64,000 nt of DNA, taken from positions 9,416 to 73,415 of the forward strand of contig JAFZAZ010000020.1 of the NCBI GenBank assembly GCA_017561985.1. Direction: 5' to 3'. A program made the translations under genes and the position numbers. Every line of letters starts with the position of its first letter. Positions within the stretch are counted from its first letter, which is position 1. Positions 2,888 to 62,212 of the stretch are shown piece by piece. The stretch comes from Lachnospiraceae bacterium. GTDB taxonomy: Bacteria > Bacillota_A > Clostridia > Lachnospirales > Lachnospiraceae. The notes beneath the pieces were generated by a model. That model saw nothing but the letters and a program-made list of their open reading frames with translations. It had not been told where the DNA came from and ran no database searches.

Positions 2888-2958
2888 CACCATTGTACGG
2901 AACGGACAGTAGAATCTTGTGTCATTTTCCGGGGCGTTGTTGTGCAAAATCTCTTCTG

Positions 2959-3357
2959 TCACAGCTTGAATCCGGTCCCCGTGAACTGTGCGATATCTCT
3001 TCCGGTGTCGTCCGTGACATCCACGTTGATCACGGTCGTGCTTCTTCCGCTCTTGCGGCAGACCGCTTTCGCCGTGAGGCGCGTGCCCTTCGGCGCACCG
3101 AGGTAGTTGATGCTCACCTGCTGCGCGACGGTCGGCCTGTGGATCTGATTTGCGCATACGGCAAATGCAAAATCCGCGAGTGTGAACATCACCCCGCCCA
3201 TGATGCCGCCGTTGGCGTTTTTGTGGCGGTCCGTAAGCGTCATCTCACACACCGCATAATCCTCGCCGAACTCCTTGAGTTCCATGCCGTTCTCGGTTGC
3301 AAACCGGTCTCCGCGGAAATACTCCTGTGCCTCCGCAAGCGTCGCAAATGTTCCCAT
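2959..3357 (-). CDS. PaaI-type hotdog thioesterase
   Basis: The 132-residue product is a single hotdog domain. The segment NANGGIMGGVMFTLADFAFA (about residues 48-67) matches the PaaI signature N-x-x-G-x-x-x-G-G with the later catalytic-type Asp, although the position that is often His in PaaI is Met here. Members hydrolyse acyl- or aryl-CoA; the substrate cannot be told from sequence. The start at 3355-3357 is chosen because AGGACAGGG precedes it and the longer frame (to 3624) runs into the upstream kinase gene. It lies downstream of the kinase with a 97-base gap holding hairpins. Confidence 0.85.
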   Translation of the reverse strand: MGTFATLAEAQEYFRGDRFATENGMELKEFGEDYAVCEMTLTDRHKNANGGIMGGVMFTLADFAFAVCANQIHRPTVAQQVSINYLGAPKGTRLTAKAVCRKSGRSTTVINVDVTDDTGRDIAQFTGTGFKL

Positions 3358-3374
3358 TTCCCTGTCCTTTCGCT

Positions 3375-3391
3375 GCGGGACATCCTCCCGC
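3375..3391. other. Small stem-loop before the thioesterase ribosome site
   Basis: GCGGGA and TCCCGC (3375-3380, 3386-3391) form a six-pair stem with a five-base loop, about 17 bases upstream of the thioesterase start on the transcribed - strand. It could tune translation; no family is recognised. Confidence 0.35.
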
Positions 3392-3408
3392 AATTTATTA
3401 TTCGCAAC

Positions 3409-3440
3409 AAGGACCGCGTGCAGTATCGGCCGCGGTCCTT
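3409..3440. terminator. Strong hairpin between kinase and thioesterase genes
   Basis: AAGGACCGCG and CGCGGTCCTT pair perfectly (10 bp, 12-base loop). The T-rich tail lies on the + strand side, while the transcribed - strand tail (GTTGCG) is weak. It may be a partial terminator or an RNA-stability hairpin between the two genes. Confidence 0.45.
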
Positions 3441-3454
3441 TGTTTTGTTCGTTT

Positions 3455-4560: not shown

Positions 4561-5913
4561 CTATTTGATCCGGATCAGATGTCCGCTCTTCTTCATAGCC
4601 TCGATGATGGCGTCGACATGTTTCTCGCAGATCTCATAGGTCGTCGCCTCACTCATAACGCGGAGTACCGGCTCCGTTCCGCTCGCGCGCAGAAGCACAC
4701 GTCCGCTGTCGCCGAGCTCTGCCGTACACGCGTCAACCTGAAGCTTCACAGCCGGATCGTCGAGCGTCGCCTTCTTGTCGTCCACAACAACGTTCTTGAG
4801 CACCTGAGGATACATCTCAACCTCGGACGCGAGAACCGAAAGCGGAAGCTGCGTCTCGATCATAACCATCATCACCATGATGGCCGTGAGGATACCGTCG
4901 CCGGTGCGTGCGTATTTGCGGAAAATGACATGTCCGGAGTTCTCGCCGCCGATCAAATGGTCCTTCTCCTTCATGTTCTCATACACGAAGCGGTCGCCGA
5001 CTGCTGTCTTCTCGTAGGAGATGCCGATGCGGTCGAGCGCCTTGTAGAGACCGAAGTTCGACATGATCGTCGTAACGACCGTGTTGCTCGGAAGCTGGCC
5101 GATTCTCTTGAGATATTTTGCGCAGATATACATGATCTGGTCGCCGTTGACAACGTTGCCGTTCTCATCCACGGCAAGGCAGCGGTCAGCGTCGCCGTCA
5201 AATGCGAATCCGACATCAACCTTCTTATCCTTCACGAACTCCTGCAGACCTTCGATGTGCGTGGAACCGCATCCGCGGTTGATGTTCGTGCCGTTCGGCT
5301 CGTTGTTGATGACGAACGTCTTCGCGCCGAGTGCGTCAAATACGGCGCGCCCGATCATCCAGGAACTTCCGTTTGCGCAGTCGAGCGCAACCTTGCGGTT
5401 CTCGAACGATTTCGTTGCAACGTTTGCAAGGTATCCGATGTAGCGGTTGCGTCCGGTGTAGTAGTCAACCGTGCAGCCGATATTCTCGCCGGTAGCGAAC
5501 GGGATCTCTTCGATCTCGCCGTCGATGTACTGCTCGATCTTGTCCTGAAGATCGTCGTCCATCTTCTCGCCGTCGCCGTTCATCAATTTGATGCCGTTGT
5601 CGGTATAAGGGTTGTGGCTCGCGCTGATCATGATTCCGCAGTCAAAGCCGTCCGTTCTCGTGATATACGACACGCAGGGCGTCGTCGTCACGTGAAGGAG
5701 GTATGCGTTTGCGCCCGAAGCCGTGATGCCGGCTGCAAGAGCGTTCTCATACATGTAGGACGAGCGGCGCGTATCCTTGCCGATCACAATCTTCGCCTGT
5801 CCGTTTTTGCCGTAGTGCCATCCGAGGAAACGGCCGATCTTGAATGCATGCTGCGCTGTAAGATCAACGCCGGACTCTCCGCGGAAGCCGTCGGTTCCGA
5901 AATATTTTCCCAT
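4561..5913 (-). CDS. glmM: Phosphoglucosamine mutase
   Basis: Interconverts glucosamine-6-phosphate and glucosamine-1-phosphate, feeding UDP-GlcNAc and peptidoglycan. The 450-residue protein opens MGKYFGTDGFRG. It has the phosphoserine loop ISASHNPYTDNG (Ser near residue 100), the Mg-binding DGDADR (about residue 242), the GGENSGH sugar loop and the C-terminal RASGTEP phosphate loop. All four domains of the alpha-D-phosphohexomutase family are present at normal length. GGAGG precedes the ATG. In many Firmicutes glmM follows cdaA-cdaR; here it is instead next to nagB, about 43 kb from the cda genes. Confidence 0.97.
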   Translation of the reverse strand: MGKYFGTDGFRGESGVDLTAQHAFKIGRFLGWHYGKNGQAKIVIGKDTRRSSYMYENALAAGITASGANAYLLHVTTTPCVSYITRTDGFDCGIMISASHNPYTDNGIKLMNGDGEKMDDDLQDKIEQYIDGEIEEIPFATGENIGCTVDYYTGRNRYIGYLANVATKSFENRKVALDCANGSSWMIGRAVFDALGAKTFVINNEPNGTNINRGCGSTHIEGLQEFVKDKKVDVGFAFDGDADRCLAVDENGNVVNGDQIMYICAKYLKRIGQLPSNTVVTTIMSNFGLYKALDRIGISYEKTAVGDRFVYENMKEKDHLIGGENSGHVIFRKYARTGDGILTAIMVMMVMIETQLPLSVLASEVEMYPQVLKNVVVDDKKATLDDPAVKLQVDACTAELGDSGRVLLRASGTEPVLRVMSEATTYEICEKHVDAIIEAMKKSGHLIRIK

Positions 5914-6661: not shown

Positions 6662-6944
6662 GTGCGTCTCCTTTAGTTTCGGAAAATATTCGATGCCGTT
6701 GCGCACGCGCGCGAACGCGCATCCGTTGTTTTTTCAACACCTAGATTATTTTACTTCCGGCGAAACGGAAAAGCAAGAAAAACCGTTTCCGGGGGTGCTA
6801 TTTTTTCAAACGGTTTGTCAACGAAAATTTAAAAATTTTTATCGTTCGTTGCAAATTTCTTTTTTCGCCTCAAAAAATTTCAAATTCATGTCGTGATTTT
6901 TTGCAAAAGCGGCTAACTCCGATTTTCCGTTTTTTTCATTTTTA
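6662..6944. other. AT-rich untranslated region upstream of nagB
   Basis: I see no gene in this 283-base stretch. On the - strand TTGACA (6822-6817) could be a -35 for nagB but its downstream -10 is poor. A 9-bp inverted repeat AAACCGTTT/AAACGGTTT (6780-6788, 6808-6816) sits on it and is a candidate operator for amino-sugar control. TAAAAT further downstream (about 6752) is another possible -10. Two copies of the window-wide CGGAAAAT octamer lie at 6680 and 6922, in opposite orientations. Confidence 0.4.
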
Positions 6945-7149: not shown

Positions 7150-10062
7150 TCACTGTCGTTTCACAACAATCGTATACCGCGCGATCGCACCGCTCTCGGT
7201 CGTCACCGTCACAACAAGCCTGCTCTCCGCTCCGGTCAGCTTCTGCTTGCCCGTGCCGGACACCGTGGCCTGTCCGTTCACCGCTGCCGCCGCGATCGTC
7301 ACACTCTCCGTTCCCGAGGGAACCGTCACTGTGTACGTATATGTCTCAGCTGTAAGCGTCGGCGAGAGACTTCTCTTCGTACCGTCCGGCGTCGTCACCG
7401 TGAGCGACGATAAGAACGGATTCGGATTGCCGACCTGCTCCGGCGCTTTGACTGCCGACTCCGGCATGTTCCGGTACACAGGGATGGAGAACGTGATCGC
7501 CATCGTGCCGAAGCTGTCCATGTTTTTGTACGCCTGGTACACCTTGTTCGCCTCGGAGCGCGGCGCCTGTGCGTTGGACATGTATTGATGCCCGAACGTC
7601 GATTTCTTCGTCACATTGTACTTCTGAAGGTACACTGTGTTCTGCCCGCGGTTGATGTACGTGCTTCCGATATAGTAAGCTCCGCCCACCAAAGCGTCAT
7701 AGCGGTTGTTCCACGGGATCTTTGACGCCTTGTTCAGCGTCGCGCTGGTGCCGCCGTATTTTGCGAACTTCAGACCGTTTTTGATGGCGCCGAGCGCCGC
7801 GGTCGAATTGTACGCACCGATATTATAGAAGTTGTAATACCCTTCAAATCCTTCCACATTGCCCGTGGCGCTCCTCGAGAAGGATGTCTGGCCGGTCACA
7901 ACCTCCTGTTTGACGCGCGAGGCAAGATGATACGGGCTCACTCCCGAGTAAGCCGCCGCCTCGAGAAATGCCTGTGAATACAGGATGGTTCTGGACTTTC
8001 CGTTCTCATCCGTGTATGTAAAGCTCGTCTTGTACATCGGCGTGCCCTTGAGGATATTTTCCACGCCCTCCTGCGTCTGGTGCTCGGGATCGTACGTGAG
8101 GTCCTCGAACATGAAGATGTGTTCTTCGGTAATCCAGTTGCGCGGGTCCATAAAATACATCAATCCCGCCGTCGATATCATCATCCAGTAGCTTCCGTCG
8201 AAGGAGCGGAACGTATCCTTCTGCCAGTCATATGAGCCGCTCGCATACGAGAGCCACGACCTTCCGTTGTTCGACTCGATCAGGTTGTTTCCGAGCGTGT
8301 CCTCTCCCGCGATCGCCTTGCTCCAGTCCATTCCGGTGTCGTACGCGCGGAATTTCCACTCGGGATGCTGCGCGTGCAGAAGCATCAGATACGGGATGTA
8401 ACTCTCCGGGAAGCCCTCCTTGCGAAGGGACTCCGCGTACGACTCATCCGCGCCCTCCGGGCGGAACGGCTGTGCCGCGCTCGCGTCCGAAAGCGTCAAT
8501 TTGCCTGCTCTCACATATCCTACAAGTCTGCGGTCGCCGTCGGCCGCAATGACTTTCATCCATTTTACGTCGCTTTGCATCACCTCGTCGATGATGTACA
8601 CCGCCTCGCCCTTCGAAAGCTTCGCTGCGCTGCCGGACGACTTCGTCACAGCCTGTCCGGACGTCGACGCGGTCTTTCGGATCGTCTCGTCGGACACGTT
8701 GCACGTCGCCCAGACGCCGCCTCCGGAGAGGTCCATCTTCACATACGTTCCGGACATATAGCCCGTGAGCGTCTTTCCGTCGACATCCGCGGTGATGCGG
8801 TACCATACGATATCTCCTACCCACGCCTGGCCGCAGATCAGAACGCCCTGCGAGAGCGTGAGCTTTGCAATCGACTCATGGGATGTCCCCGCGCCGGTCC
8901 GCAGGTTCACGTGATTGCCCGTGACATGGCCGGGAATCTCATACGTGTGTGCAAACGTCGGGCTTGCGGCAGGCACTCCCGCCTTGGTCTCGTCGCCCTT
9001 GAAGGCAATGGCGCCGCTGTTGTTCGCGCCGACCAGCGGATAATCCGCCTCGGTCTTCACGTACTGCGAGTATACGTATCCGCGGTATTGCAGCACTCCC
9101 ACGGAAAATTCAACTTCATACCAGACGTCGCCGTCGCTCTCCAGCCCGAACGCCACGACCGTCAGCTTCTGACCGTTTTTGATCTGCACGATCTTCGGAT
9201 ACTCCGTGCCCGGACCCGTGCGAACATTGAGCGTCGAGGACGTCACGGTCGCGCCGGTGCTTCGGATGGCTTCCGGCGTGCTCGTAGGCTTCGGCGTCGG
9301 TGTGCTCGTCGGCGCAGGCGTCGGAGTGCTCGTAGGCTTCGGCGTCGGCGTGCTTGTAGGTTTCGGTGTCGGCGTAGGCGTCGCGATGCCCGCTCCGAGC
9401 TTTATATATTCCGCAAAGACATAAGCGCCGTCCTTGCGTCCTTTGTATTCAATCTGATACCAGAGCTGTCCCTTGGTGTCCTTCTTCTCCCCCGTCACAA
9501 CAAGCTTGTCGCCGCTGTACACCTTGCCGAGGATCGAGTACTGTGAGGAAGCTCCCTCGCGCACGTTCATGCGGGTGACCGAGACGGTTCCCGTTCTCGG
9601 GAACGCAGGCGTCGGGGTCGGCGCGGGCTTCTTCGTGGGAGTGGGCGTCGGCTTCCTGGTAGGCGTCGGTGTCGCGGTCGGCTTCCTGGTAGGCGTAGGC
9701 GTCGGTTTCTTCGTGGGAGTAGGTGTCGGCGCTGCGCCGGACACACTCACGTAGTCCGCCCAGAGATAGCCGTTCAGCGTCTTGCCTGAGACTTTCGTCT
9801 CGACCGGATACCACCATTTTCCGTCCGAGGATTTCGTCTTGCTTCCGGTCACGATAACGCTGTGCCCTTTCGTGAGCGTCGCCAGCACCGCATAGCTCGT
9901 TCCCGCACCCGCACGGAGATTCAGCTTGTTGGCGGTCACTTTTCCCTCAGTACGCGTGGCTGCATATGCATCAAAAGAAGACGGCGTTCCGGGGAACCCC
10001 GCCATGCACTTCAACACCAGCGCAAGCGCCAGCACAATCGCAATGCGTCTCGCGTATCTCAT
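7150..10062 (-). CDS. Secreted multi-SH3b beta-N-acetylglucosaminidase-like protein
   Basis: The 970-residue exported protein starts with a signal peptide (RRIAIVLALALVLKCMAG). It has SH3b domains at about 40-108, 155-222 and 267-338, joined by Pro/Thr-rich linkers (108-152, 224-265), and two more SH3b-like units (about 375-445, 450-530). A glucosaminidase-type catalytic region at about 560-880 includes ASRVKQEVVTGQ, EGYYNFYNIGAYNS and GAYYIGSTYINRGQ. The C-terminus is a cadherin-like beta-sandwich (about 885-970). It probably binds and cleaves peptidoglycan in growth or daughter-cell separation. The start has almost no Shine-Dalgarno, and the promoter -10 is only six bases upstream (see findings). 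A strong terminator follows, so it is monocistronic. Confidence 0.88.
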   Translation of the reverse strand: MRYARRIAIVLALALVLKCMAGFPGTPSSFDAYAATRTEGKVTANKLNLRAGAGTSYAVLATLTKGHSVIVTGSKTKSSDGKWWYPVETKVSGKTLNGYLWADYVSVSGAAPTPTPTKKPTPTPTRKPTATPTPTRKPTPTPTKKPAPTPTPAFPRTGTVSVTRMNVREGASSQYSILGKVYSGDKLVVTGEKKDTKGQLWYQIEYKGRKDGAYVFAEYIKLGAGIATPTPTPKPTSTPTPKPTSTPTPAPTSTPTPKPTSTPEAIRSTGATVTSSTLNVRTGPGTEYPKIVQIKNGQKLTVVAFGLESDGDVWYEVEFSVGVLQYRGYVYSQYVKTEADYPLVGANNSGAIAFKGDETKAGVPAASPTFAHTYEIPGHVTGNHVNLRTGAGTSHESIAKLTLSQGVLICGQAWVGDIVWYRITADVDGKTLTGYMSGTYVKMDLSGGGVWATCNVSDETIRKTASTSGQAVTKSSGSAAKLSKGEAVYIIDEVMQSDVKWMKVIAADGDRRLVGYVRAGKLTLSDASAAQPFRPEGADESYAESLRKEGFPESYIPYLMLLHAQHPEWKFRAYDTGMDWSKAIAGEDTLGNNLIESNNGRSWLSYASGSYDWQKDTFRSFDGSYWMMISTAGLMYFMDPRNWITEEHIFMFEDLTYDPEHQTQEGVENILKGTPMYKTSFTYTDENGKSRTILYSQAFLEAAAYSGVSPYHLASRVKQEVVTGQTSFSRSATGNVEGFEGYYNFYNIGAYNSTAALGAIKNGLKFAKYGGTSATLNKASKIPWNNRYDALVGGAYYIGSTYINRGQNTVYLQKYNVTKKSTFGHQYMSNAQAPRSEANKVYQAYKNMDSFGTMAITFSIPVYRNMPESAVKAPEQVGNPNPFLSSLTVTTPDGTKRSLSPTLTAETYTYTVTVPSGTESVTIAAAAVNGQATVSGTGKQKLTGAESRLVVTVTTESGAIARYTIVVKRQ
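9268..9393 (-). repeat. Pro/Thr linker repeat between SH3b domains 2 and 3
   Basis: Tandem degenerate units encode repeats of the TPTPKPTS type (about residues 224-265 of the glucosaminidase). The low-complexity DNA could vary in length between strains. Confidence 0.75.
9607..9741 (-). repeat. Pro/Thr/Lys linker repeat between SH3b domains 1 and 2
   Basis: Imperfect tandem units encode TPTPTRKPT/TPTKKPT repeats (about residues 108-152). The linker is basic, unlike the second one, and may contact anionic wall polymers. Confidence 0.75.
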
Positions 10063-10068
10063 AATCCC

Positions 10069-10129: not shown

Positions 10130-10216
10130 CGGAAAATGACGCCCTCCGGGCGCAAAAAGAAACACCGGAAGGGAATCCCCTGCCGGTGTTTTTTGTCGTG
10201 ATGGTTTCATTTTCCG
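10130..10216. repeat. Inverted CGGAAAATGA pair bracketing the aquaporin terminator
   Basis: CGGAAAATGA (10130-10139) and TCATTTTCCG (10207-10216) are perfect inverted copies 67 bases apart, with the terminator hairpin between them. The left copy is also part of a 14-bp palindrome TTTTCCGCGGAAAA (10123-10136). Confidence 0.6.
10161..10190 (-). terminator. Intrinsic terminator after the aquaporin gene
   Basis: AACACCGG and CCGGTGTT pair around an inner GGGAATCCC stem. On the - strand the stem is followed by TCTTTTT. It closes the purE-to-aquaporin run. Confidence 0.85.
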
Positions 10217-11047: not shown

Positions 11048-12097
11048 TTAGCGTGTACCGATCGCACGGAAGAAGTTGAACAAGCCGGAGTAGATCGCAT
11101 TGTTGTCATGATCCGCATTGGGAATCTCGTACCAGATGTGCGCGATGCCGTTCTTCTCGAACAGCTCGTGATACGAGAGCGGGAATTTGCCGACCACCTG
11201 GTCTCTCGTACCGCAGCAGATGATGAGTGCATCGGGCACAGTCGTCCCCTCAGCCACCTTCACCGCATCCTCGGTCAGCGTTCCCGGGTGCGTCATGTAC
11301 TTGTCGACGCCGGGAACAAGACCCGGTGCCGCCGAGATCGCAACCACATATCGGAAGCGGTCGGGATATGACAAAAATGCGTACAGCGTCTCACGGCCGC
11401 CCATCGAAAAGCCTGCGAGATACGTGCCCTCGCGACCCTGTACGGTCGAATATTTCGCATCGATATGCGGGATCAGACAATCTACGAGTTCCTTCGGAAA
11501 ACGGTCGTACGGGATCATCGCCTCGCCCGTGAAGCCGGGCTGCTGCACCGTCTCGCCGGACGCCGCGAACATGTTCGTGCACACGATGATCACTTCCTCG
11601 CAAAGCCCGTCGGCGACGAGGTTTCCGAGGATGACAGGGATCGTTCCGTCCTTCGCAAAATCATTTTCCGAACCGAAAATGCCGTGCTGAAGGTACACGA
11701 CCGGATACTTCTTCTCCGTCGTGTATCCGGGCGGAAGCATGATCGTATAACCGCGGTCGCGGCCGCAGTAATCCGAGTGGTACGTCTCGTGAACAAACGT
11801 CCCGTAAGTCACGCCCTCCCGCTTCTTCATGTACTCCGCAGGGCACTTTGCGTACATACCGTTCTCATAGATCATCGAAGTCGGCGTGGGCGTCGCAGTC
11901 GGCGCCTCGGTCACAACCGCACCCGTGGGCGACGGCTCCAGAGCCTGCGTCGGCTCATTTGCGGGCTCGCCGGCAGGCGTATTGGTCGGTGTGTCCGCGG
12001 ATGCCTCGCTGTTGTTGGAATTGCTGCCGCCGCATCCCGCAAGAAGGGACGCAACCGCCATCACAAGAATTCCCAAAAGAACAATCTTCATCTTCAT
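11048..12097 (-). CDS. Lipoprotein esterase of the CE1 / putative esterase (D) family
   Basis: The product has 349 residues. The signal peptide ends in LLAGC (lipobox, Cys near residue 22), so it is a membrane-anchored lipoprotein facing outward. A Ser/Thr/Pro linker of about 50 residues follows, then an alpha/beta-hydrolase domain. Visible active-site parts are YLQHGIFGSENDF (oxyanion region), the nucleophile elbow AGFSMGG and a C-terminal NADHDN His. Feruloyl or acetyl-xylan esterases are close families, so a plant-polymer or cell-surface ester is a plausible substrate. ATG 12095-12097 is preferred for its AGAGGA site; a GTG at 12115 overlaps the purD stop and is the alternative. Confidence 0.85.
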   Translation of the reverse strand: MKMKIVLLGILVMAVASLLAGCGGSNSNNSEASADTPTNTPAGEPANEPTQALEPSPTGAVVTEAPTATPTPTSMIYENGMYAKCPAEYMKKREGVTYGTFVHETYHSDYCGRDRGYTIMLPPGYTTEKKYPVVYLQHGIFGSENDFAKDGTIPVILGNLVADGLCEEVIIVCTNMFAASGETVQQPGFTGEAMIPYDRFPKELVDCLIPHIDAKYSTVQGREGTYLAGFSMGGRETLYAFLSYPDRFRYVVAISAAPGLVPGVDKYMTHPGTLTEDAVKVAEGTTVPDALIICCGTRDQVVGKFPLSYHELFEKNGIAHIWYEIPNADHDNNAIYSGLFNFFRAIGTR

Positions 12098-12111: not shown

Positions 12112-13389
12112 TCACGCCTCGTCGATCGCCTTGCCGATGTCGTGACGCATGTATTTGTTGGCGAAGGAGATCAGCTCCGTCGCCTTGTAAGCGTTTGCAC
12201 GCGCCTCCCTGAGGTCCGCACCGAGCGCGGTCACGCCGAGAACACGGCCGCCGTTCGTGAGGATTTCTCCGTCCGGACCGAATTTAGTTCCCGCGTGGAA
12301 CACAAATTTGTCGCTGCAGCCCTTGAACGCCTCGAGCCCCGAGATCGGAAGTCCCTTCTCATAGTGCTGCGGATAGCCGTCGGACGCAAGCACGACGCAT
12401 ACAGCCGCATTGTCCGCAAACTTGAGCTCAATCTCGTCGAGACGGCCGTCGATGCACGCCTCGAACACGTCGACGATGTCATTTTCCATGCGCGGCAGAA
12501 CAACCTGCGTCTCCGGATCGCCAAAGCGAGCATTGTACTCGAGAACCTTCGGTCCCTCGGGCGTCAGCATCAGACCGACGAACATCACGCCCGTGAAAGG
12601 ACGTCCCTCCGCCGCCATCGCAGCCATCGTCGGCTCGTAAATATTCTTCACGCAAAACTCATGAATCTCGTCGGTATAGAACGGGCTCGGGGAAAATGTG
12701 CCCATACCGCCCGTGTTGAGCCCCGTATCTCCGTCACCGGCGCGCTTGTGGTCCTGCGCGCTCGTCATCGGACGGACGTTCCTGCCGTCGCAGAAGCACA
12801 GAGCCGACACCTCGCGGCCAGTCATGAACTCCTCAACAACCATCTTGTCGCCGGCCGTTCCGAAGTGCTTGTCAAGCATGATCTCCTTGACGCCCGCAAG
12901 CGCCTCTGCCTCGTTGTTGCAGATCAGAACGCCCTTGCCGAGAGCCAGTCCGTCCGCCTTCAGAACGACGGGGTACTTGCCCTGCGAAACAATGTATGCC
13001 GAAGCCTCCTCCGCGTCGGAAAACGTCTCGTATCCGGCCGTCGGAATGCCGTATTTCTTCATCAATTCCTTGGAAAATGCCTTGCTTCCCTCGATGATGG
13101 CAGCGTTCTTTCTCGGCCCGAAGACACGCAGTCCGGCTGCCTCGAAAGCGTCTACAACGCCGCCCACGAGCGGGTCGTCGGGACCGACCACTGTCAGGTC
13201 GATCGCATTTTCCGAAGCGAACGCAACGAGCTTGTCAAACTCCATCACGCCGATCGGTACACATGTCGCAAGCTCCGCGATTCCCGCGTTGCCGGGCGCA
13301 CAATAGATCTTCGTCGCCTTGCTGCTCTTTGCGATTGCCGTAACGATCGCATGCTCTCTTCCGCCGCCGCCGATAACAAGAATGTTCAT
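12112..13389 (-). CDS. purD: Phosphoribosylamine-glycine ligase (GAR synthetase)
   Basis: Second step of purine synthesis: ATP-dependent joining of glycine to phosphoribosylamine. The 425-residue ATP-grasp protein begins MNILVIGGGGREHAI. It shows GPDDPLVGG, the ATP-binding ADGLALGKGV strand and EYNARFGDPETQ near the Mg site. Normal length for bacterial monofunctional PurD. GGAGG is 11 bases before the ATG, a slightly long spacing. It sits 36 bases after purN and its stop overlaps the region of the esterase start. Confidence 0.97.
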   Translation of the reverse strand: MNILVIGGGGREHAIVTAIAKSSKATKIYCAPGNAGIAELATCVPIGVMEFDKLVAFASENAIDLTVVGPDDPLVGGVVDAFEAAGLRVFGPRKNAAIIEGSKAFSKELMKKYGIPTAGYETFSDAEEASAYIVSQGKYPVVLKADGLALGKGVLICNNEAEALAGVKEIMLDKHFGTAGDKMVVEEFMTGREVSALCFCDGRNVRPMTSAQDHKRAGDGDTGLNTGGMGTFSPSPFYTDEIHEFCVKNIYEPTMAAMAAEGRPFTGVMFVGLMLTPEGPKVLEYNARFGDPETQVVLPRMENDIVDVFEACIDGRLDEIELKFADNAAVCVVLASDGYPQHYEKGLPISGLEAFKGCSDKFVFHAGTKFGPDGEILTNGGRVLGVTALGADLREARANAYKATELISFANKYMRHDIGKAIDEA

Positions 13390-15152: not shown

Positions 15153-15303
15153 AACCAAAGCCTCCATTTTCCGTATCCCGGACCTGTTACTCCCTCCGGA
15201 ACCGTCCTCATTGTATCACAAAACATCTTCCCGCGCACCTGCAAAACGCTGCTTCGGCGCAGTTTTTCCTTCATTCAAACAATAAGCGCTGCTTATAGAT
15301 CGA

Positions 15304-15819: not shown

Positions 15820-15847
15820 GATGGATGCCTCCTGTTGTTACCGTTTA

Positions 15848-25271: not shown

Positions 25272-25300
25272 ATTGTACCATTTTCCGCGTCGCATGTCAA
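25272..25300 (-). promoter_or_regulatory. Strong promoter of dapA-dapB
   Basis: On the - strand, consensus TTGACA (25300-25295), a 17-base spacer and TACAAT (25277-25272). The spacer contains the octamer CGGAAAAT (25287-25280). Predicted start near 25265. Confidence 0.85.
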
Positions 25301-29929: not shown

Positions 29930-29979
29930 CGGAAAATGTGCAGAATCCTCCGTAAATTGCTTGGATATGACATTTTCCG
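29930..29979. repeat. Inverted CGGAAAATGT pair in the intergenic region
   Basis: CGGAAAATGT (29930-29939) and ACATTTTCCG (29970-29979) are perfect inverted 10-mers 30 bases apart, just past the dCMP deaminase stop. The loop has no terminator hairpin. Confidence 0.6.
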
Positions 29980-33715: not shown

Positions 33716-33768
33716 CGGCCGTTTCCCCCTTTCGCAACCGTTTCTGCCAACCTGACCTTCGGAAAATA

Positions 33769-41869: not shown

Positions 41870-41933
41870 ACATTTTCCGGCAGTCGCCCCCACGACTTGC
41901 CGCCCTTTCCTGTGTTAAACCCTTTCAAAAGCG

Positions 41934-50323: not shown

Positions 50324-51170
50324 TGTTGTTCCAGTCCTTTCTGAACCGTCTGCGGCTTCCCGAGGACTTGTTCTGGCTCTCGGTCAGCTTGCTGCGGATC
50401 AAATCCTCCGTCACATCGCGGAGCAGCTGTCCGCGCTGTGCCATCGCGACCTTACCGGTCTCCTCGGAGACGATGATGGTCAGACAGTCGGAGTTCTCAC
50501 TGACGCCGACGCCCGCGCGATGTCTCGTTCCGAGTTCCTTCGAAAGACGCATATTTTCCGAAACGGGAAGAATACACGTAGCCGCAACCGCACGGTTTCC
50601 GCGCACGATAACCGCGCCGTCGTGAAGCGGCGTGTTGTGTTCGAATATGTTGATCAAAAGTGCGCTCGTCACAAGCGAATCAAGCGCGATACCGGTCTTC
50701 TCGTACTCCTCGAGGGACACATTCTCCTCGATGACGATCAGGGCGCCGGTCTTAACCTCAGCCATGGAGAGAACTGCCGCGATGATCTCCTCGCGCGTCT
50801 CATCGGAGAAACGCTCGACAGTTCCTTTGCCGTTTCCGAAGAAACCGACAATGTTACGCTGGCCGAGCTGTTCGAGCGCACGGCGCAGCTCAGGCTGGAA
50901 AATGATAAACAAAGCGATGATACCCACGCTCAGCGTGTTTCGGAAAATCCACAAAATCGCTGTGAACTCAAAGATCGTCGCGACAAACCATACCACGATA
51001 AGCACGATCAAACCCTTCACCAGGTACCATGCGCGTGTACGTTTGATCCAGTTGATCAGATGGTAGATCAGAAACGCGATCAGCAATATCTCGATCACGT
51101 CCGTCACGCCGAATTTCGGGAATGAAACCCAGCTGAAAGCATTGCGTATGGCTTCCAGGACAGCTCCCAT
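50307..51170 (-). CDS. cdaA: Diadenylate cyclase
   Basis: Makes c-di-AMP from two ATP at the membrane. The 287-residue protein has three N-terminal helices (about 17-37, 44-62, 65-87) and a DAC domain (about 100-250) with the active-site DGAVIV and LGTRHRAGVGVSE motifs. AAAGGAG precedes the ATG. c-di-AMP controls potassium, osmotic and wall homeostasis in Firmicutes. In the classic order glmM follows cdaR, but here the following gene is an HPr. Confidence 0.95.
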   Translation of the reverse strand: MGAVLEAIRNAFSWVSFPKFGVTDVIEILLIAFLIYHLINWIKRTRAWYLVKGLIVLIVVWFVATIFEFTAILWIFRNTLSVGIIALFIIFQPELRRALEQLGQRNIVGFFGNGKGTVERFSDETREEIIAAVLSMAEVKTGALIVIEENVSLEEYEKTGIALDSLVTSALLINIFEHNTPLHDGAVIVRGNRAVAATCILPVSENMRLSKELGTRHRAGVGVSENSDCLTIIVSEETGKVAMAQRGQLLRDVTEDLIRSKLTESQNKSSGSRRRFRKDWNNNEKQA

Positions 51171-51216: not shown

Positions 51217-52671
51217 TTACAGATAATCCTCGTCTGCCTCGTCGGCGTTGCCGGACTTGGGCTCCGCTGCGTCGCCGAAGTAACCGTAGATCACCTGCTC
51301 GTCCTCATCATCGTCATCGTCGTCATCCGCAAGAGGTATCGGAACGGGGCGCGATGCGGGCGCCGCCGGTTTTGCCGCAGGTGCCGCCGGTCTTGCCGCA
51401 GGCGCTGCGGGAGCGGCTTTCACAGCCTTCGAAGCCGCGGGTGCCGAAGGTTTTACATTTTGCGCAGGCTCGGACTTTCCTCCCGCCACGGTAACCGCGC
51501 GGACAGGCGCGTCTCCGTCTGCATTTTCCGCCTCACGAACGGCAACGCGGCGCGCGTGTTCCTTCGCAAAGCTGCGGATATCGTCGATATCGCCGAACTC
51601 GTCGTCCTCGTCCTCTTCCTCCTCGGCAGAGGCGTCGGTCTTCGCGTCCTTGATGCTCTCGGCAGCCCTGTTGCTGTAATCGATCAGGCCGAGTGCGGTA
51701 TCCTCGAACTCCTCGTCGTCATCCTCGCTGTCTCCGTCACGGCGACGGCGGATCACTTTCTTCTCCTTGCGCTTCGGCGCGCCCTCCTTGATCTTCGGGA
51801 TCGCCTTTACGTAGTAATAGTAATCGTCATCTTCAAACTCGACATGCTCCGCAGCCGAGTAGCGCAGCACGCGGTAGAAGAACAGAATCACCAGCGAAGC
51901 GCCGGCGCTGATCAGGCTCATCACAACCATGCCTGCGATCTTGATGCCCATGTCATACTTCAGGTCCGCAATGATATAACCAAGCATCATCACACCCGTA
52001 CCGACGGCAATGCTGATCTCAAACGCATAGTCCATATTGATACGGCGGATAAAGTATACCGCAACGATGACGACGGTCATGATCAGCATGACAACGTACA
52101 TCGGCGGGTTCTTCAAAAGCTGGTCCAGAACCGTGGTGAAGATCGTCATCGGTTCCGTCACGATATTGACCTGACTGAGTGCATCGATATTCTTTCGCAC
52201 GAACAATATTGTGTAGTAAGCAAACACGCCGCAGCACACCGGAACGATCGACATGAGGTTGCTGAACAATCCCATCAGAAGCGGAAGTGCGTACGGAACG
52301 CCGAACGACTGCATCACCGGCATCGCGATCATCGCCGAACCCTGGCGAGGCGCAAAACGCAGGAAGAAGCAGTAGCAGATCATAAACAGTGCAAACACCG
52401 TGATTGCAAGGATCATCGATTTCGACATAATCTGCATCGACACATATGCCGCCGCGACAACCACCATCAGACTCGACGGCAGGAACGCCGATACAAGCGC
52501 GAGCACCAGGACAACCAGTGTCTTCGACAGCGTCGCGTTGTACGGAAGCAGTGCCTTGATACGGCTGTAAGCAATAAACAGCAGTGCGAACCGGAACGCC
52601 AGATTGATCCAGAAATCGTATTTCTGGTAAATCGACGTGACCTTGGCACGCAGTTCAAACAATAACATCAT
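51217..52671 (-). CDS. Polytopic membrane protein with charged low-complexity tail (unrecognised)
   Basis: The 484-residue protein has eight to nine membrane segments in the first 270 residues. A cytosolic tail follows that alternates acidic (EFEDDDYYYY, DSEDDDEEFED), basic (KRKEKKVIRRRR) and Ala/Pro-rich (AAPAAPAARPAAP) runs. I do not recognise the family. It sits between the 52689 gene and cdaA (46-base gap), suggesting an envelope role linked to c-di-AMP. The start is one of two adjacent ATGs (52671 or 52668) after a poly-G ribosome site. Confidence 0.75.
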   Translation of the reverse strand: MMLLFELRAKVTSIYQKYDFWINLAFRFALLFIAYSRIKALLPYNATLSKTLVVLVLALVSAFLPSSLMVVVAAAYVSMQIMSKSMILAITVFALFMICYCFFLRFAPRQGSAMIAMPVMQSFGVPYALPLLMGLFSNLMSIVPVCCGVFAYYTILFVRKNIDALSQVNIVTEPMTIFTTVLDQLLKNPPMYVVMLIMTVVIVAVYFIRRINMDYAFEISIAVGTGVMMLGYIIADLKYDMGIKIAGMVVMSLISAGASLVILFFYRVLRYSAAEHVEFEDDDYYYYVKAIPKIKEGAPKRKEKKVIRRRRDGDSEDDDEEFEDTALGLIDYSNRAAESIKDAKTDASAEEEEDEDDEFGDIDDIRSFAKEHARRVAVREAENADGDAPVRAVTVAGGKSEPAQNVKPSAPAASKAVKAAPAAPAARPAAPAAKPAAPASRPVPIPLADDDDDDDEDEQVIYGYFGDAAEPKSGNADEADEDYL

Positions 52672-54925: not shown

Positions 54926-54984
54926 CACAATTTTTCGGAAAATGCGCAAAATCTTGGCGAACCGTCCCCCTCAGACGCGTCCCG

Positions 54985-56067
54985 TCACACGGGAATCTCG
55001 ATCAGTTCCTTCGGGGAATGCGCAAAATTCTCGCAGCCGTCCTCGGTCACAAGGACCAGATCCTCGATGCGGACGCCGCCGAAGTCCTCGATGTAAATGC
55101 CGGGCTCCACGGTCATCAGACTGCCTGCGCGCACGATCTCTTCGCTGCGCGCGTTCGCATACGGAGGCTCGTGGATCTCAAGGCCGACGCTGTGTCCGAG
55201 GCCGTGTCCGAAGCACCCCTCAAAGCCCGCGGCGTTGATGATATCCCTTGCGATCGTATCGATCTCCCTGCCGGTCATGCCGGCGCGGATCTTCGCAAGC
55301 ACCGCCGTCTGTGCGGTGAGGACGGTATTGTAAATCTCGCGCTGCCTCGGGCTTGCCTCGCCGAGCACGACGGTTCTCGTCATGTCCGAGCAGTATCCTT
55401 CGTATACGCAGCCGAAATCCATAGTCACAAAATCGCCCGGGCGCAGCGCTCTCGCCCCAGGCATCGCGTGCGGCATCGACGAGTTGATGCCCGACGCCAC
55501 GATCGGCGGGAACGAATTGCCGGACGCGCCGAGCATGCTCATGTAATACGTGAGCTTCGCAGCGATCTCCGACTCGGAAACTCCGGGCTTCAGATCTCCG
55601 AGGATGCGCGCAAAAGCCTCGTCGCCGATGCTCTCCGCCCTGCGCAGCAGGCGCAGTTCCTCCTCCGTCTTGATCTTCCGAAGCTCGATCAACACATTGT
55701 CCACAGGAACAAGCTCTGTGCCGCTGTCTTTGAAAGCCTCCGTCAGCGCCTCGAAAGCGCGGTAACCTGTCGCATCGCGTTCAAAAGCAACGCGCTTCGC
55801 GCCGTGTCCTGCACACAGCTGTGCCGTCAGTTTCGCGTAGCTCGTTCCTGCGACGTCGATCACTTCGCACTCCGCGGCTTCCTTCTTCGCCTGAAACAAA
55901 AACCGGAAGTCGGTCATCAGAAAGGCGCTTCCGTCCGCAAACAGAAGCAGTTCGCCCGTATCGTTCGTGTATCCGCTCAAATACCGGATATTTGCCGTGT
56001 CCTTAATGATCATCGCGTCCGCGGGAATCTCCCCGAGAACGGCGATCGCACGTGTCAAAGCACTCAT
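54985..56067 (-). CDS. pepQ: M24 family Xaa-Pro dipeptidase/aminopeptidase
   Basis: The 360-residue protein has a creatinase-like N-terminal domain (1-125) and a pita-bread M24 domain. The dinuclear metal ligands are visible in MDFGCVYEGYCSDMTR (two Asp), GHGLGHSVGLEIHE (His), VEPGIY (Glu) and GVRIED (Glu). It cleaves X-Pro bonds in the cytosol. The ATG is embedded in ACGGAAAATG, so the octamer supplies the purine-rich stretch before the start; a GAGG lies further upstream. It begins six bases after aroQ ends, a metabolically unrelated neighbour. Confidence 0.92.
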   Translation of the reverse strand: MSALTRAIAVLGEIPADAMIIKDTANIRYLSGYTNDTGELLLFADGSAFLMTDFRFLFQAKKEAAECEVIDVAGTSYAKLTAQLCAGHGAKRVAFERDATGYRAFEALTEAFKDSGTELVPVDNVLIELRKIKTEEELRLLRRAESIGDEAFARILGDLKPGVSESEIAAKLTYYMSMLGASGNSFPPIVASGINSSMPHAMPGARALRPGDFVTMDFGCVYEGYCSDMTRTVVLGEASPRQREIYNTVLTAQTAVLAKIRAGMTGREIDTIARDIINAAGFEGCFGHGLGHSVGLEIHEPPYANARSEEIVRAGSLMTVEPGIYIEDFGGVRIEDLVLVTEDGCENFAHSPKELIEIPV

Positions 56068-56073
56068 TTTCCG

Positions 56074-56550: not shown

Positions 56551-56649
56551 GTAAGACTCCTTCTCCGTTCACCCGGAATGTCCTTTGTATTCCAAATCCC
56601 GCATTTTCCGCAGGATTGCTGTTCGAATCTGATCGATCCGCGAATCGAT

Positions 56650-57681
56650 TTACAGTGCGTCCTTGACTGCGTCCGCAATCTGCGCAAAGCTTCTGTCGTC
56701 GATGTCGACCGTGCGGTGCGCCACCATCGGATAGATGAACCGCCAGCGCAGGAAGAGGTTCTTTCTCTCCTCCTCGTTGCGCTCCGCCAGAAGGACCGGG
56801 CGCTCCTGCGGATCAAGTTCCGCGACGCGCTTCATCATCTCCTCCTCGCTGCCGTTCAAGTACACGACCGTTCCGAGTTTGCGAAGCATCGTCTGGTTCT
56901 TCGTGCGCACGGGCATGCCGTCGCCCGTCGCAATGACCGTGTGCGTCTTGGATTTCAGAATTCCCTTGAGCGCCATCGTCTCCAGGTCGCGGAAATACTC
57001 CTCGCCCTTCGTTCGGAAAATCTCGGCGATGCTCATGCCGACCTTCTCCTCGATATATCGGTCGGTGTCGACGAAATCGTACCCCATCTCCTCCGCGAGA
57101 ATCCGCCCGACCGTCGTCTTGCCGGACCCCATGAAGCCGATCAGCACGATATTCAGCTGATGCATCTTCTCCCAGCGGTCGCGGCGATAGAAATGCATGA
57201 CCACGCGCTCGAGCTTGCGCTTTGCGATGATCTGGATCTCCTCGGCCTTGTTGATGGGCTTAACCAGGATGGAACGGATGCCCGAGCGGTTGGCGCCGTA
57301 CACGTCGGTGAACAGCTGGTCGCCGATGAACAATGTATTCTTCTTGGTCGTGCGCATCAACACCATCGCCCTGAGGTAATTCTTGCGCGCGGGTTTGTGC
57401 GCGTTGAAGATATAGTGAAGTTTCACGCCCTTGACGCGCGCGCCGCGGTAGAACCGGCGCACCCGGGGTGCCTTGTTGTTCGACAACAGGCAGATGCGGA
57501 AACCGATCTTGTTGAGACGACGAAACAGCGCGATCACCTCCGCATTCGCGTCGGCACCGTGCTCCACAAGCGTGTTGTCGATGTCATAGATCAGGCCCCG
57601 GTACCCTCTTCGATACAGCTCTTCGTAGTCGATATCGTATGAGGATTCGGCCATCTCCGCAGGATAAAACATGCGAAACAT
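56650..57681 (-). CDS. Fusion of YqeG-like HAD phosphatase and shikimate kinase
   Basis: The 343-residue protein has two domains. Residues 1-170 are a YqeG-type HAD-IIIA phosphatase: YDIDNTLVEHG (nucleophile Asp), CLLSNN (motif II Ser) and KPARKNY/FIGDQLFTDVYGAN (motifs III/IV). Residues about 174-343 are a shikimate kinase: Walker A GFMGSGKTT, DTDRYIE, EIFRTKGEEYFR and RPVLL. The kinase motif that is usually Gly-Gly-Gly reads ATGDGMP. The DNA shows one continuous frame with no stop between the domains. Its position beside aroQ supports a real AroK role. ATG 57679-57681 has GGAG nine bases upstream. Confidence 0.9.
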   Translation of the reverse strand: MFRMFYPAEMAESSYDIDYEELYRRGYRGLIYDIDNTLVEHGADANAEVIALFRRLNKIGFRICLLSNNKAPRVRRFYRGARVKGVKLHYIFNAHKPARKNYLRAMVLMRTTKKNTLFIGDQLFTDVYGANRSGIRSILVKPINKAEEIQIIAKRKLERVVMHFYRRDRWEKMHQLNIVLIGFMGSGKTTVGRILAEEMGYDFVDTDRYIEEKVGMSIAEIFRTKGEEYFRDLETMALKGILKSKTHTVIATGDGMPVRTKNQTMLRKLGTVVYLNGSEEEMMKRVAELDPQERPVLLAERNEEERKNLFLRWRFIYPMVAHRTVDIDDRSFAQIADAVKDAL

Positions 57682-57867: not shown

Positions 57868-57943
57868 TTCGGAAAATGCCCCCGGGCGCAAAAAGGACGG
57901 CCGCACGAAAATGTGCAGCCGTCCGCGATGATCATTTTCCGAA
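57868..57943. repeat. Inverted TTCGGAAAATG pair bracketing the fusA2 terminator
   Basis: TTCGGAAAATG (57868-57878) and CATTTTCCGAA (57933-57943) are perfect 11-bp inverted copies 54 bases apart. The fusA2 terminator hairpin lies between them, as at the aquaporin terminator. Confidence 0.65.
57890..57924 (-). terminator. Intrinsic terminator after the FusA2-type EF-G gene
   Basis: GGACGGC-C-GCAC and GTGC-A-GCCGTCC pair with one mismatch and a six-base loop; on the - strand it is followed by TTTTTGCG. Confidence 0.88.
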
Positions 57944-60072: not shown

Positions 60073-60124
60073 GTTTGTAATCCTCCAATACATTTCTTTT
60101 CCGCCGGAGCGAAAATCATATCTG

Positions 60125-60153
60125 ATTTTACCAATTTTTCGGAAAATAATCAA
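60125..60153 (-). promoter_or_regulatory. Promoter of the FusA2-type gene
   Basis: On the - strand TTGATT (60153-60148), a 17-base spacer and TAAAAT (60130-60125) preceded by TGG. The spacer begins with ATTTTCCG, the window-wide octamer (60140-60147). Confidence 0.75.
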
Positions 60154-60163
60154 TTCTTTTTGT

Positions 60164-60196
60164 TGCATTTTACAAAAAACTTTCCCGTAAAATGCA
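60164..60196. promoter_or_regulatory. Inverted repeat upstream of the FusA2-type promoter
   Basis: TGCATTTTAC (60164-60173) and GTAAAATGCA (60187-60196) are perfect inverted copies 13 bases apart, 10 bases upstream of the -35. Candidate operator for fusA2 control. Confidence 0.4.
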
Positions 60197-60230
60197 AAAA
60201 ACGGCAGCCATGCGTCTGCACAGCTGCCGT
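60195..60230 (-). terminator. Intrinsic terminator after the DUF885 lipoprotein gene
   Basis: ACGGCAGC and GCTGCCGT pair with a 14-base loop; on the - strand the stem runs into TTTTTTGC. Confidence 0.88.
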
Positions 60231-60289
60231 ATCTCGTTGATTTTGTCAAATGTCGTGTCAGTTATCGGCAAAACAGCCTGTTTTTTGCA

Positions 60290-62212
60290 TTACTCCGCCG
60301 AAAGGCCGAGGTGCTTGCGAAGCACGCTGAAGCTGCTAGGGCCGACCTTGAGGAACGCCTCATAAGCCTCCTTCTGCGTCATTCCCTTCTGCATGAGCTC
60401 GTCGATAATGTCGAGACACAGGAAATGGCACAGCGAGTACGAGAGCGACGTGCCGGGATCCGCGACAACCGATGCGTAAATCTCATTCGCATATTTTTCG
60501 TTCAGCATGTTCTCGCTCATAAACTTGCGGAGCTCGTCCTTGCTCCAGTTGTAGTAGTTCACACCGATATCACAGCATGCAACCATCGCCATCGAGAACG
60601 TATAGTCGAGGTCAAAGATGAAGGCAACATTCTCGTCGCCGTCCGCCGCCCACAGGTACGCGTTCTTGCCCATCATGGTCGCCCAGCCTTCCAGGTATCC
60701 CGTGTAATGAAACTGCGTATTGATCGGATGATATCCCTCGGACGAACGGAAATACTCATTCTGGTACAGGTGTCCGGGGTATCCCTCGTGCGCAAGCGTC
60801 GAGAACAGCTCTACGCTGTCCTGATCGTTGTCCGGGTTCACACGGATGACCTTGTGATCCGGGTTATCGTACTGCGGCTCAAGGAAGTATGCCAGAATAC
60901 CCTCCACGCGAAGCTCCTCCGGAAGCGCGTCAGCGATAAATTTCGTGTCGCGGATCTTCGGATATTCGTTCGCGGTGCGTTTCTTGAGATCGTTAAGAAT
61001 CACGTCAAAATCCCTCGAGCCGTACTCCAGCTTCGCTTTACGGCTCATCACAGTTCTGTCGCTGTTGCGGATCGCGGTGTAATCGGTCAGCATCTTCTCG
61101 CCCCTGTAGAGCAGGTAGCTGTACAACCGGTCGACACTCCATCCGGAGCCGGTCGTCGACTCGACAAGGAACTCGTAATATTTCTTTCCGCCGTCGCGGC
61201 TTCCGAGCGATACCGGGTCGCTGACATAGATTTCAAGCGTGCGAACGTCCGCGAGCATCTGCTCCGCTGCAGGAATAAACGCCTGCTCCATGGCAGTCTT
61301 CGCGAGCTCGGTGTATTTGTCGATAATATCGTTACTGAACCCGCCCTGCTTCATGTTCGCGACAAATGCGATCAGCAGAACGTTATCGTCCTTCTTGCAC
61401 AGACCTTTCGTGTTCTCAACCGTCGTATCATACATTCCCTGCGTCGGACAGAGACCTGCCATACAGAGACTCTTCATCGATGCGAAAAGTTTCGGAAAAT
61501 ACTCCGCAACCGCATAGAGTTCCTTCACATACGACTCGAGGTCCTTCTCTTCGATCAGCGGATACTCCATGAGCATCGTGGAGATGCCGTTCACCGAGTT
61601 GCCGCTCTCTTCCATCAGATAGTTGTACGCAGGCTTGATGTCGCGGTAGCGCTCGCAGAGAGAGAGCTGGTACATAAGACGGTCGTAATTGATCTTCTGC
61701 GGCTCCGTCAGATTCTCGTAGTTAAACTCGAAGAGACCATCCGCGTACTCCTTCATCTGAAGGTACGCCTCCTCGTAATCGACCGGCTCCTCCGTGTAAT
61801 CGTACGTCGGAGTGATTCCGTACTCCTCGGGATGCTCCAGGACGAAATGAAGCGAAATGCTGTCCGTTCCGACCATATCCACGAAGATCTCCGTGAGATA
61901 TTCGTCAAATGCGGCTCTCTCCTCCTCTACGGAATCAAAGCTTCCGCGGGGGGTGGGAGTAGGTGTCGCCGATACCGGTGTAGGTGTCGGAGTCGCTGCC
62001 TCGGTGGGCGTCGGCGTTGCCGTCGGATCCGGCGTAGGTTCCGCCGTCGGCTCCGGCGTCGCGGTCAGACCCGCGGTAGGAGTCGGCGTAGATTCGTTAT
62101 TGGGTTCCTTGCCGCCCTCTCTCTTCTGCGCGCGCTCCGCGCCGCATGCAGTCACCAGAACGATGACAAGGAGCAGACAAAGGATTCGTTTCCATATTCC
62201 TCTTTTGTACAT
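60290..62212 (-). CDS. DUF885 family lipoprotein, probable zinc hydrolase
   Basis: The 640-residue product has a signal peptide with lipobox VTAC (Cys near residue 23), a Pro/Thr-rich linker (about 40-90) and a long helical DUF885 domain. HEGYPGH (about 475-481) followed by a Glu in YLEGWA (about 508) forms a gluzincin-like zinc site. It is probably an outward-facing metallo-carboxypeptidase-type enzyme; substrates in this family are poorly known. ATG 62210-62212 follows AAAGGAC. The PT linker matches those in the glucosaminidase and the esterase, so the organism uses one linker style on exported enzymes. Confidence 0.88.
   Translation of the reverse strand: MYKRGIWKRILCLLLVIVLVTACGAERAQKREGGKEPNNESTPTPTAGLTATPEPTAEPTPDPTATPTPTEAATPTPTPVSATPTPTPRGSFDSVEEERAAFDEYLTEIFVDMVGTDSISLHFVLEHPEEYGITPTYDYTEEPVDYEEAYLQMKEYADGLFEFNYENLTEPQKINYDRLMYQLSLCERYRDIKPAYNYLMEESGNSVNGISTMLMEYPLIEEKDLESYVKELYAVAEYFPKLFASMKSLCMAGLCPTQGMYDTTVENTKGLCKKDDNVLLIAFVANMKQGGFSNDIIDKYTELAKTAMEQAFIPAAEQMLADVRTLEIYVSDPVSLGSRDGGKKYYEFLVESTTGSGWSVDRLYSYLLYRGEKMLTDYTAIRNSDRTVMSRKAKLEYGSRDFDVILNDLKKRTANEYPKIRDTKFIADALPEELRVEGILAYFLEPQYDNPDHKVIRVNPDNDQDSVELFSTLAHEGYPGHLYQNEYFRSSEGYHPINTQFHYTGYLEGWATMMGKNAYLWAADGDENVAFIFDLDYTFSMAMVACCDIGVNYYNWSKDELRKFMSENMLNEKYANEIYASVVADPGTSLSYSLCHFLCLDIIDELMQKGMTQKEAYEAFLKVGPSSFSVLRKHLGLSAE
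61943..62095 (-). repeat. Pro/Thr linker repeat of the DUF885 lipoprotein
   Basis: Degenerate tandem ggcgtcggcgtag-like units encode TPTPT/EPTPDPT repeats that tether the enzyme away from the membrane. Confidence 0.7.

Follow-up and report, generated by a model that had tools for sequence, protein, structure and literature searches.

We examined a 64-kb stretch of DNA from a Lachnospiraceae bacterium (55.8% GC; GenBank assembly GCA_017561985.1, contig JAFZAZ010000020.1, positions 9,416 to 73,415; hereafter the window) and found that an asymmetric octamer, written CGGAAAAT or ATTTTCCG according to strand, is strongly over-represented in it and in the genomes of related bacteria. Judged from its distribution, the word, which often extends to the 9-mer CGGAAAATG, is probably a local dialect of a DNA uptake sequence, that is, a tag of the kind formed by the DNA uptake sequence (DUS) of Neisseriaceae and the uptake signal sequence (USS) of Pasteurellaceae, which would have evolved independently in a Gram-positive lineage; we infer both a receptor for the word and an uptake bias towards DNA that carries it. 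To our knowledge, uptake sequences are known only from these two families, both Gram-negative, and their origin is unsettled between selection for safe recombination and selfish drive.

The exact octamer occurs 40 times in the window (on the + strand, 17 times as CGGAAAAT and 23 times as ATTTTCCG), a density of 625 per Mb, whereas dinucleotide shuffles of the same DNA gave 3.68 copies (standard deviation 1.96; none of 100 shuffles reached 40) and a third-order Markov model (Markov-3) predicted 6.1. The 9-mer was present in 25 copies against 1.7 under Markov-3, and when all octamers of the window were ranked by Markov-3 z-score, GGAAAATG came first (37 copies against 3.8) and CGGAAAAT second. 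An earlier, sequence-only reading of this DNA had counted 39 octamers and 24 9-mers, and its claim of over-representation is borne out. A search of the window with Rfam at gathering thresholds and a tRNA scan found nothing.

Genome-wide counts come from relatives of the window, namely 22 genomes (mostly many-contig drafts) of one genus, whose member G198 came nearest to the window among 397 genomes of the family when judged by one protein (64% identity). The octamer read backwards served as a control. Ten of the 22, hereafter A type (G198, G407, G410, G412, G413, G414, G416, G419, G421 and G425), each carried 1,163-1,839 copies of CGGAAAAT against 8-35 of the reversed word, or 480-707 per Mb on rounded genome sizes; the USS has a similar number of copies per kb. 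The remaining 12 held 284-767 copies against 41-104, and eight outgroup genomes reached via their glutaminyl-tRNA synthetase (GlnRS) held 28-431 against 64-166, the reversed word being a lenient control. Counts against Markov-3, the check proposed with the sequence-only reading, were 189 to 27.0 in G416 (278 kb), 292 to 37.0 in G414 (390 kb) and 260 to 46.5 in G425 (400 kb), hence 5.6-7.9-fold and not near expectation. Across the 397 family genomes, CGGAAAATG peaked in G198 (763 against 14 for its control); the others had from 4 to a few hundred copies, commonly 2-5 times the control as judged by eye, with stronger rises in G409 (421/18), G082 (401/15), G386 (354/17), G218 (340/5) and G098 (337/20). 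The samples of G218, G386 and G082 were short (3.2, 6.8 and 13.1 kb) and contained 0, 5 and 2 copies of CGGAAAAT.

Placement of the copies in the window, made with a home-made simple gene caller, put 21 wholly in genes, 14 outside any possible extension of an open reading frame (ORF) and 5 where the gene start is uncertain. Each of the 17 positions previously listed as intergenic does hold a copy, but three of them (6680, 41872 and 60140) fall in start-ambiguous stretches. The intergenic bias claimed on that basis stands as a raw density in the window (4.07 per kb in intergenic against 0.35 per kb in coding DNA), but it vanishes in three relatives once the background is matched for composition. 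For this comparison, genes of the relatives were called with a simple caller trained per genome, Markov-3 was fitted separately to coding and intergenic DNA, and sites that did not lie entirely inside a gene or unambiguously between genes were excluded (5/40 in the window, 11/189 in G416, 19/292 in G414, 12/260 in G425 and 3/93 in G406). The fold-excess in genes and in spacers was 7.4 and 7.4 in G416, 8.1 and 8.3 in G414, 5.9 and 6.0 in G425 and, with the variant word GGCAAATG, 10.1 and 10.2 in G406; in the window itself it was 5.5 and 7.9, on 21 and 14 copies, so that a difference remains there. Since the excess in the three A-type relatives is equal in the two compartments, the intergenic bias mostly reflects base composition, and a special preference for spacers beyond it was rejected.

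Orientation relative to the host gene was likewise even, with same:opposite ratios of 70:74 in G416, 102:98 in G414, 98:88 in G425, 38:39 in G406 and 9:12 in the window. All six combinations of frame and orientation were present in the three larger A-type samples, with two of them at roughly double the frequency of the other four. In the window, 50 of 55 called genes lie on one strand and the motif is divided 23:17. Four ORFs of the window start at an ATG inside the motif (copies at 2924, 15166, 25280 and 56066), although the one at 25280 is probably not the true start, since the dapA family match begins at residue 35. Start-codon context was ruled out as an explanation by the symmetry of strand and frame.

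This same symmetry bears on whether the word could be a polarity element of recombination or segregation, such as Chi (read by AddAB/RecBCD) or KOPS/SRS (read by FtsK/SpoIIIE). These are, like the motif, short asymmetric words in hundreds of copies per Mb, and its nearly blank flanks would suit such an element. Chi and KOPS/SRS are, however, polar with replication, being skewed along the leading strand, whereas the motif is even to the gene strand in four relatives (gene strand serving as a proxy for replication strand), is split 23:17 in the window despite the strong gene polarity there, and favours inverted neighbours, so that an identity of this kind is scarcely credible.

In an alignment of all GGAAAAT sites, a C precedes and a G follows, the next position shows a weak C/A/T, and the flanks are nearly blank. 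Single substitutions of CGGAAAATG in G414 and G425 were tolerated to different degrees: variants at positions 1, 3 and 9 were 2.7-8.7-fold over expectation, those at position 4 1.4-3.4-fold, those at position 2 1.4-2.5-fold and those in the AAAT 0-1.8-fold. In G406, where the corresponding word is CGGCAAATG, positions 1, 3 and 4 were tolerant and position 9 hardly so (1.5-1.7). In its shape, the substitution profile resembles the graded preference of a protein and not the trace of a copied repeat. The near-blank flanks, which carry almost no information, also lead us to reject the remnants of a small repeat family that the sequence-only reading had offered as one of three ideas.

Two kinds of methylation-linked word were compared with this profile. 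HIP1 of cyanobacteria is likewise a hugely over-represented octamer, but it is described as the palindrome GCGATCGC and as tied to orphan methyltransferases (PMC4390886), while the consensus found here is asymmetric. A non-palindromic methyltransferase or defence site (type III or BREX-like), by which the cell would mark its own DNA, would fit an asymmetric A-containing word with a lineage-specific spelling; a 6-10-fold excess, graded tolerance and avoidance on the same strand are unexpected of such a site, and we regard it as highly improbable.

Motif sites are distributed more or less uniformly, with gaps that average 1.2-1.5 kb and have a coefficient of variation of 0.81-1.05, and counts per 20 kb in the sampled stretches were near Poisson, with no regional concentration. 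Neighbour pairs within 100 bp were inverted in 55 of 63 cases; the figure for 445 control words was 32-44%, depending on distance class. Spacing was analysed on 1,213 GGAAAAT sites drawn from four data sets. Pairs on the same strand reached 0.54 of expectation at 8-100 bp, 0.50 at 100-200 bp and 0.67 at 200-400 bp, and opposite-strand pairs 1.66, 1.10 and 1.08 (pooled over 8-400 bp, 0.60 and 1.22), while beyond 400 bp both orientations lay at 0.91-1.01. Control 7-mers gave the opposite pattern (same strand 1.25-1.78, opposite strand 0.83-0.94), and none of 300 control rows, which include at least one word entered twice, was as extreme as GGAAAAT. The direction was the same throughout the four data sets (same:opposite 9:15, 35:67, 53:135 and 55:102) and inside single genes (80 same against 178 opposite within 400 bp), and pairs closer than 500 bp in a smaller sample from G406 (GGCAAAT, 130 sites) showed a similar leaning. 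In the sampled relatives, inverted copies did not keep to any one fixed distance.

This orientation-dependent spacing suggests that the tag may be directional and that one copy per strand every few hundred bases would be enough: avoidance on the same strand and tolerance on the opposite strand would follow from a tag that commits the fragment to import by one strand or in one direction. In Neisseria gonorrhoeae, single-stranded DNA carrying the Crick-strand DUS is reported to transform somewhat, in comparison with DNA bearing no DUS or the Watson strand (PMC12061091), and a neisserial study describes transformation as unchanged by an inverted arrangement, one DUS being needed (PMC2397512).

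Spacing also tells against ordinary sequence context as a full account, the term covering here start codons or ribosome sites, codon-pair bias, terminators and small-repeat remnants. Such context is consistent with the four ORFs starting at a motif ATG and with the location of close inverted GGAAAAT pairs in spacers: of 42 such pairs no more than 80 bp apart, 27 have a stop codon within 150 bp on the strand that would read into the pair. Some of these pairs may thus double as terminators, but the inverted preference is found inside single genes and is therefore not due to terminator hairpins alone. Together with gene-strand symmetry, the use of all frames, the similar excess in and out of genes, the near-blank flanks and the opposite spacing of control words, this makes ordinary context a most unlikely source of the motif.

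The spelling of the motif varies among relatives. A refined matrix was started from three different seeds per genome, and the seeds converged on CGGAAAATg in G414, on CGG[C/A]AAATG[T/C]NAC with a strong extra A in G406 and on CGG[C/A]AAATgC in G420; in G001, two of three seeds gave AAAATGC, matching its k-mers. Beside these matrices, G426 has a further word. Whole A-type genomes contained 1,202-1,763 copies of GGAAAATG against 191-437 of GGCAAATG, and G406 contained 491 and 614. The samples used for spelling were thin (5-16 kb) in G408, G412, G415 and G422. Outside the genus, 52 of 80 loci, those of at least 15 kb, were scanned, and ten had an octamer above the cut; in locus L041, from another lineage, the word was GGCAAAATC, found in 21 kb and chosen for its likeness to the motif, and in the whole genome GGCAAAAT occurred 854 times against 45, with 156-336 against 46-126 in five other genomes.

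The window belongs to an uncultured member of the Lachnospiraceae: for the one protein that was searched, most named hits near the top are proteins of metagenome-assembled genomes from this family, and its GlnRS shares 82% identity with the one encoded by the metagenome-assembled genome 'Lachnoclostridium sp. UBA1781'. Nine A-type genomes encode a GlnRS 91-96% identical to that of the window (in G421 it is in two pieces, of 91% and 80%), and nine non-A genomes one that is 79-89% identical; no orthologue was found in G407 (A type), G415 or G422. By GlnRS identity, the A type goes with kinship, G420 (95%) being the exception, and on the matrices above the spelling variants share a core. Two observations stand beside these results. 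G420 uses two spellings in similar numbers (GGCAAATG 622, GGAAAATG 672), though it is near kin of single-spelling genomes, and six stretches of G417 (L194, L195 and L228-L231) show other over-represented words, AAGCTTTCCG and GTGGTACTAA.

The motif is conserved where the spelling is shared. Retention was measured on 603 gene pairs that were reciprocal best hits within the sampled stretches; as the comparisons were made both ways and for several pairs, the counts are not independent. Between A-type genomes (76% nucleotide identity), CGGAAAAT was retained unchanged in 66 of 162 cases, whereas 600 permuted words were retained in 1,044 of 5,065. For codons lying wholly in CGGAAAATG and encoding an unchanged amino acid, 103 of 132 were identical between A-type genomes, where the behaviour of those codons outside the motif predicted 67.8 (a ratio of 1.52); twelve control words gave 179 of 273 against 152.3 (a ratio of 1.18). 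When the partners were the non-A genomes, taken together, the codons were identical in 51 of 99 cases against 51.5 expected (towards G406, 14 of 26 against 12.8; towards G420, 7 of 11 against 6.5). Synonymous positions in motif sites are thus conserved among genomes of the same spelling and not towards others.

Much of this evidence would fit any protein that reads sequence, and the main rival is an unknown intracellular protein binding across the genome (a nucleoid organiser, or a repair or recombination factor) with a site about every kilobase per strand, an idea already raised by the sequence-only reading, which persists as a rival. The even spread, the site-like profile, its maintenance and the same-strand spacing are all compatible with it, and the ATTTCCCGGGAAAT site bound by Noc in Bacillus subtilis resembles an inverted pair of the motif; Noc sites, however, number only tens per genome. 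The motif shows no single fixed inverted spacing, no regional concentration in the sampled stretches and no gene-strand polarity, and a change of spelling among close relatives would be unusual for a house-keeping site, for which reasons we consider such a protein unlikely, though a serious contender.

A DNA uptake signal is the best supported of the three earlier ideas, on density, spellings, inverted pairs, strand symmetry, lineage-specific conservation and competence genes. As to the last, ComEC and DprA were each detected in 20 of 22 genus genomes and a ComEA-type protein over the cut-off in 21. In 16 genomes comEA shares a contig with comEC at a distance of about 4 kb; in G409, G415 and G424 the distance is less than 1 kb. 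A PilB-type ATPase gave a full-length profile match in 17 of 22 genomes and a partial one in G413 and G419; the profile search of the 22 did not detect the ATPase in the draft genomes G406, G421 and G422. In locus L255 of G425 the order is pilB, pilT, pilC, two pilin-like genes, a prepilin-peptidase-like gene, a pilM-like gene and further genes, the ATPase being identified by profile search and the rest named by order and look; the two pilin-like genes carry N-methylation motifs and are receptor candidates only. A Gram-positive envelope is no bar, since the type IV pilus of Streptococcus pneumoniae is reported to bind DNA in transformation (PMC3694846). By inspection of the sequence, comEA in loci L214-L221 (G406, G420, G419, G416, G418, G423 and G412) has a response regulator after it, together with a sensor-like gene, and comEC has another gene before it; this suggests a putative two-component system inside the competence locus.

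In the mechanism we propose, a short asymmetric tag on both chromosome strands would be bound on free DNA by a surface receptor, presumably a DNA-binding part of the competence machinery, perhaps a minor type IV pilin or ComEA; the pilus would retract, ComEA and ComEC would bring in one strand, and DprA and RecA would recombine it, the steps from receptor to import being our inference. Copies would accumulate, by molecular drive and/or selection, because tagged fragments are taken up preferentially: DNA of close kin would bear a tag about every kilobase, and mutated tags would be restored by recombination with tagged DNA.

DUS and USS share, as described, most of the features tested for the motif (PMC3630211, PMC2397512, PMC5031613, PMC12616744, PMC2346458). 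Frye et al. 2013 (PMC3630211) describe the DUS of Neisseriaceae as a word of about 10-12 bases that is present in many copies on either strand, whether inside genes or between them. They report dialects that keep an invariant core and agree with phylogeny, the presence of two such dialects within a single genome, comparable to G420 here, and frequent inverted pairs linked to terminators. DUS are also reported to be conserved above their surroundings (PMC2397512), and annotated genes to start at an ATG in the tag (PMC2346458). The DUS differs from the motif in its unrelated sequence, ATGCCGTCTGAA, and in belonging to another phylum and cell envelope; the inverted preference beyond hairpin range and the same-strand repulsion to about 400 bp were measured on the motif. 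The USS of Pasteurellaceae is described with a 9-mer core, AAGTGCGGT, in two dialects that follow phylogeny (PMC12616744) and without general orientation bias along the genome (PMC2346458), again like the motif, but it is another word, and its extended form is described with an AT-rich 3' flank (PMC12616744), whereas the flanks of the A spelling are nearly blank.

Several results weigh against an uptake sequence or against parts of that interpretation. One orientation is reported to be commoner inside genes for both DUS and USS (PMC2346458), whereas the motif is even there. The matrix depended on the seed in G001, G409, G424 and G417, so that their spelling is unsure; G411 resembles G406 in 40 kb, yet its whole genome has more GGAAAATG (863) than GGCAAATG (424); G420 stands near the A genomes (GlnRS 95%) but has a mixed spelling; and sampled stretches of G417, G418 and G423 show little motif. 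A change of GGAAAAT to GGCAAAT was seen in only 1 of 103 aligned sites (G406, G411 and G409 together), and in-place conversion of dialects was rejected: sites are turned over rather than converted in place. ComEC is in two pieces in G408 and G415, and the three competence families match in 10, 9 and 10 of 14 control genomes, so that their presence is only permissive. The longest motif-free gap, of 11.3 kb in locus L151, contains ordinary host genes (Trp-repressor-like, DUF1836, UvrD/PcrA helicase, trypsin-PDZ protease and cellulase) and therefore gives no support to an avoidance of mobile elements, which was dropped; motif-free 4-kb windows were no commoner than Poisson (3 against 3.5), and depletion in low-GC DNA was modest (43 against about 67 expected in 15 4-kb windows).

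The copies found in the window are collected in the following table.

Table. The 40 exact octamer copies in the 64-kb window
Position	Strand	Location
2924..2931	-	intergenic; motif ATG is first ATG of thrC ORF 1303-2925
4919..4926	+	in glmM ORF 4561-5913
6680..6687	+	start-ambiguous stretch
6922..6929	-	intergenic
9102..9109	+	coding
9816..9823	-	start-ambiguous stretch
10130..10137	+	intergenic; inverted pair with 10209
10209..10216	-	intergenic; inverted pair with 10130
11663..11670	-	coding
13207..13214	-	in purD ORF
15166..15173	-	at first ATG of purM ORF
16304..16311	-	coding; inverted pair with 16319
16319..16326	+	coding; inverted pair with 16304
17715..17722	-	coding
18886..18893	+	coding
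21001..21008	+	coding
22787..22794	-	coding
25280..25287	-	at first ATG of dapA ORF; ATG probably not start
26250..26257	-	start-ambiguous stretch
28750..28757	-	coding, opposite to gene
28995..29002	-	coding, opposite to gene
29930..29937	+	intergenic, directly 3' of stop; inverted pair with 29972
29972..29979	-	intergenic; inverted pair with 29930
33651..33658	-	coding
33760..33767	+	intergenic, after IMPDH gene
37113..37120	-	in class I E/Q-type tRNA synthetase ORF (GlnRS)
41017..41024	+	coding
41872..41879	-	start-ambiguous stretch
47656..47663	+	coding
50553..50560	-	coding
50941..50948	+	coding
51523..51530	-	coding
54936..54943	+	intergenic
56066..56073	-	at first ATG of M24 peptidase ORF
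56603..56610	-	intergenic
57014..57021	+	coding
57870..57877	+	intergenic; inverted pair with 57934
57934..57941	-	intergenic; inverted pair with 57870
60140..60147	+	start-ambiguous stretch of EF-G-like gene
61493..61500	+	coding

Among the sampled stretches of relatives, locus L134 (G425:C1:1-20000) has 44.5% GC and few motif copies for its composition, and is possibly acquired DNA. In locus L141, at about 14700-19800, several small WXG100-like proteins, perhaps of a type VII secretion cluster, were noticed on looking at the sequence.

In the open-access literature, no Gram-positive or Lachnospiraceae uptake sequence appeared among the matches listed, which is not proof of absence; nothing joined Lachnospiraceae, natural competence and an uptake sequence, and the matches listed for the 9-mer string were unrelated by title. 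We put forward more tentatively, as a possibility somewhat short of even, the fuller proposal that this is a third uptake-sequence system, of independent origin and the first among Gram-positive lineages, that it has several spellings in Lachnospiraceae, and that its tags are directional, with those on one strand standing no closer together than a few hundred bases. If true, a Gram-positive case with several spellings in close gut species would indicate that such tags arise repeatedly, and its spacing pattern would offer a test of whether tags are read by strand. It would further mean that natural transformation is frequent in an abundant family of gut bacteria, and the tag may make these gut bacteria transformable for experimenters.

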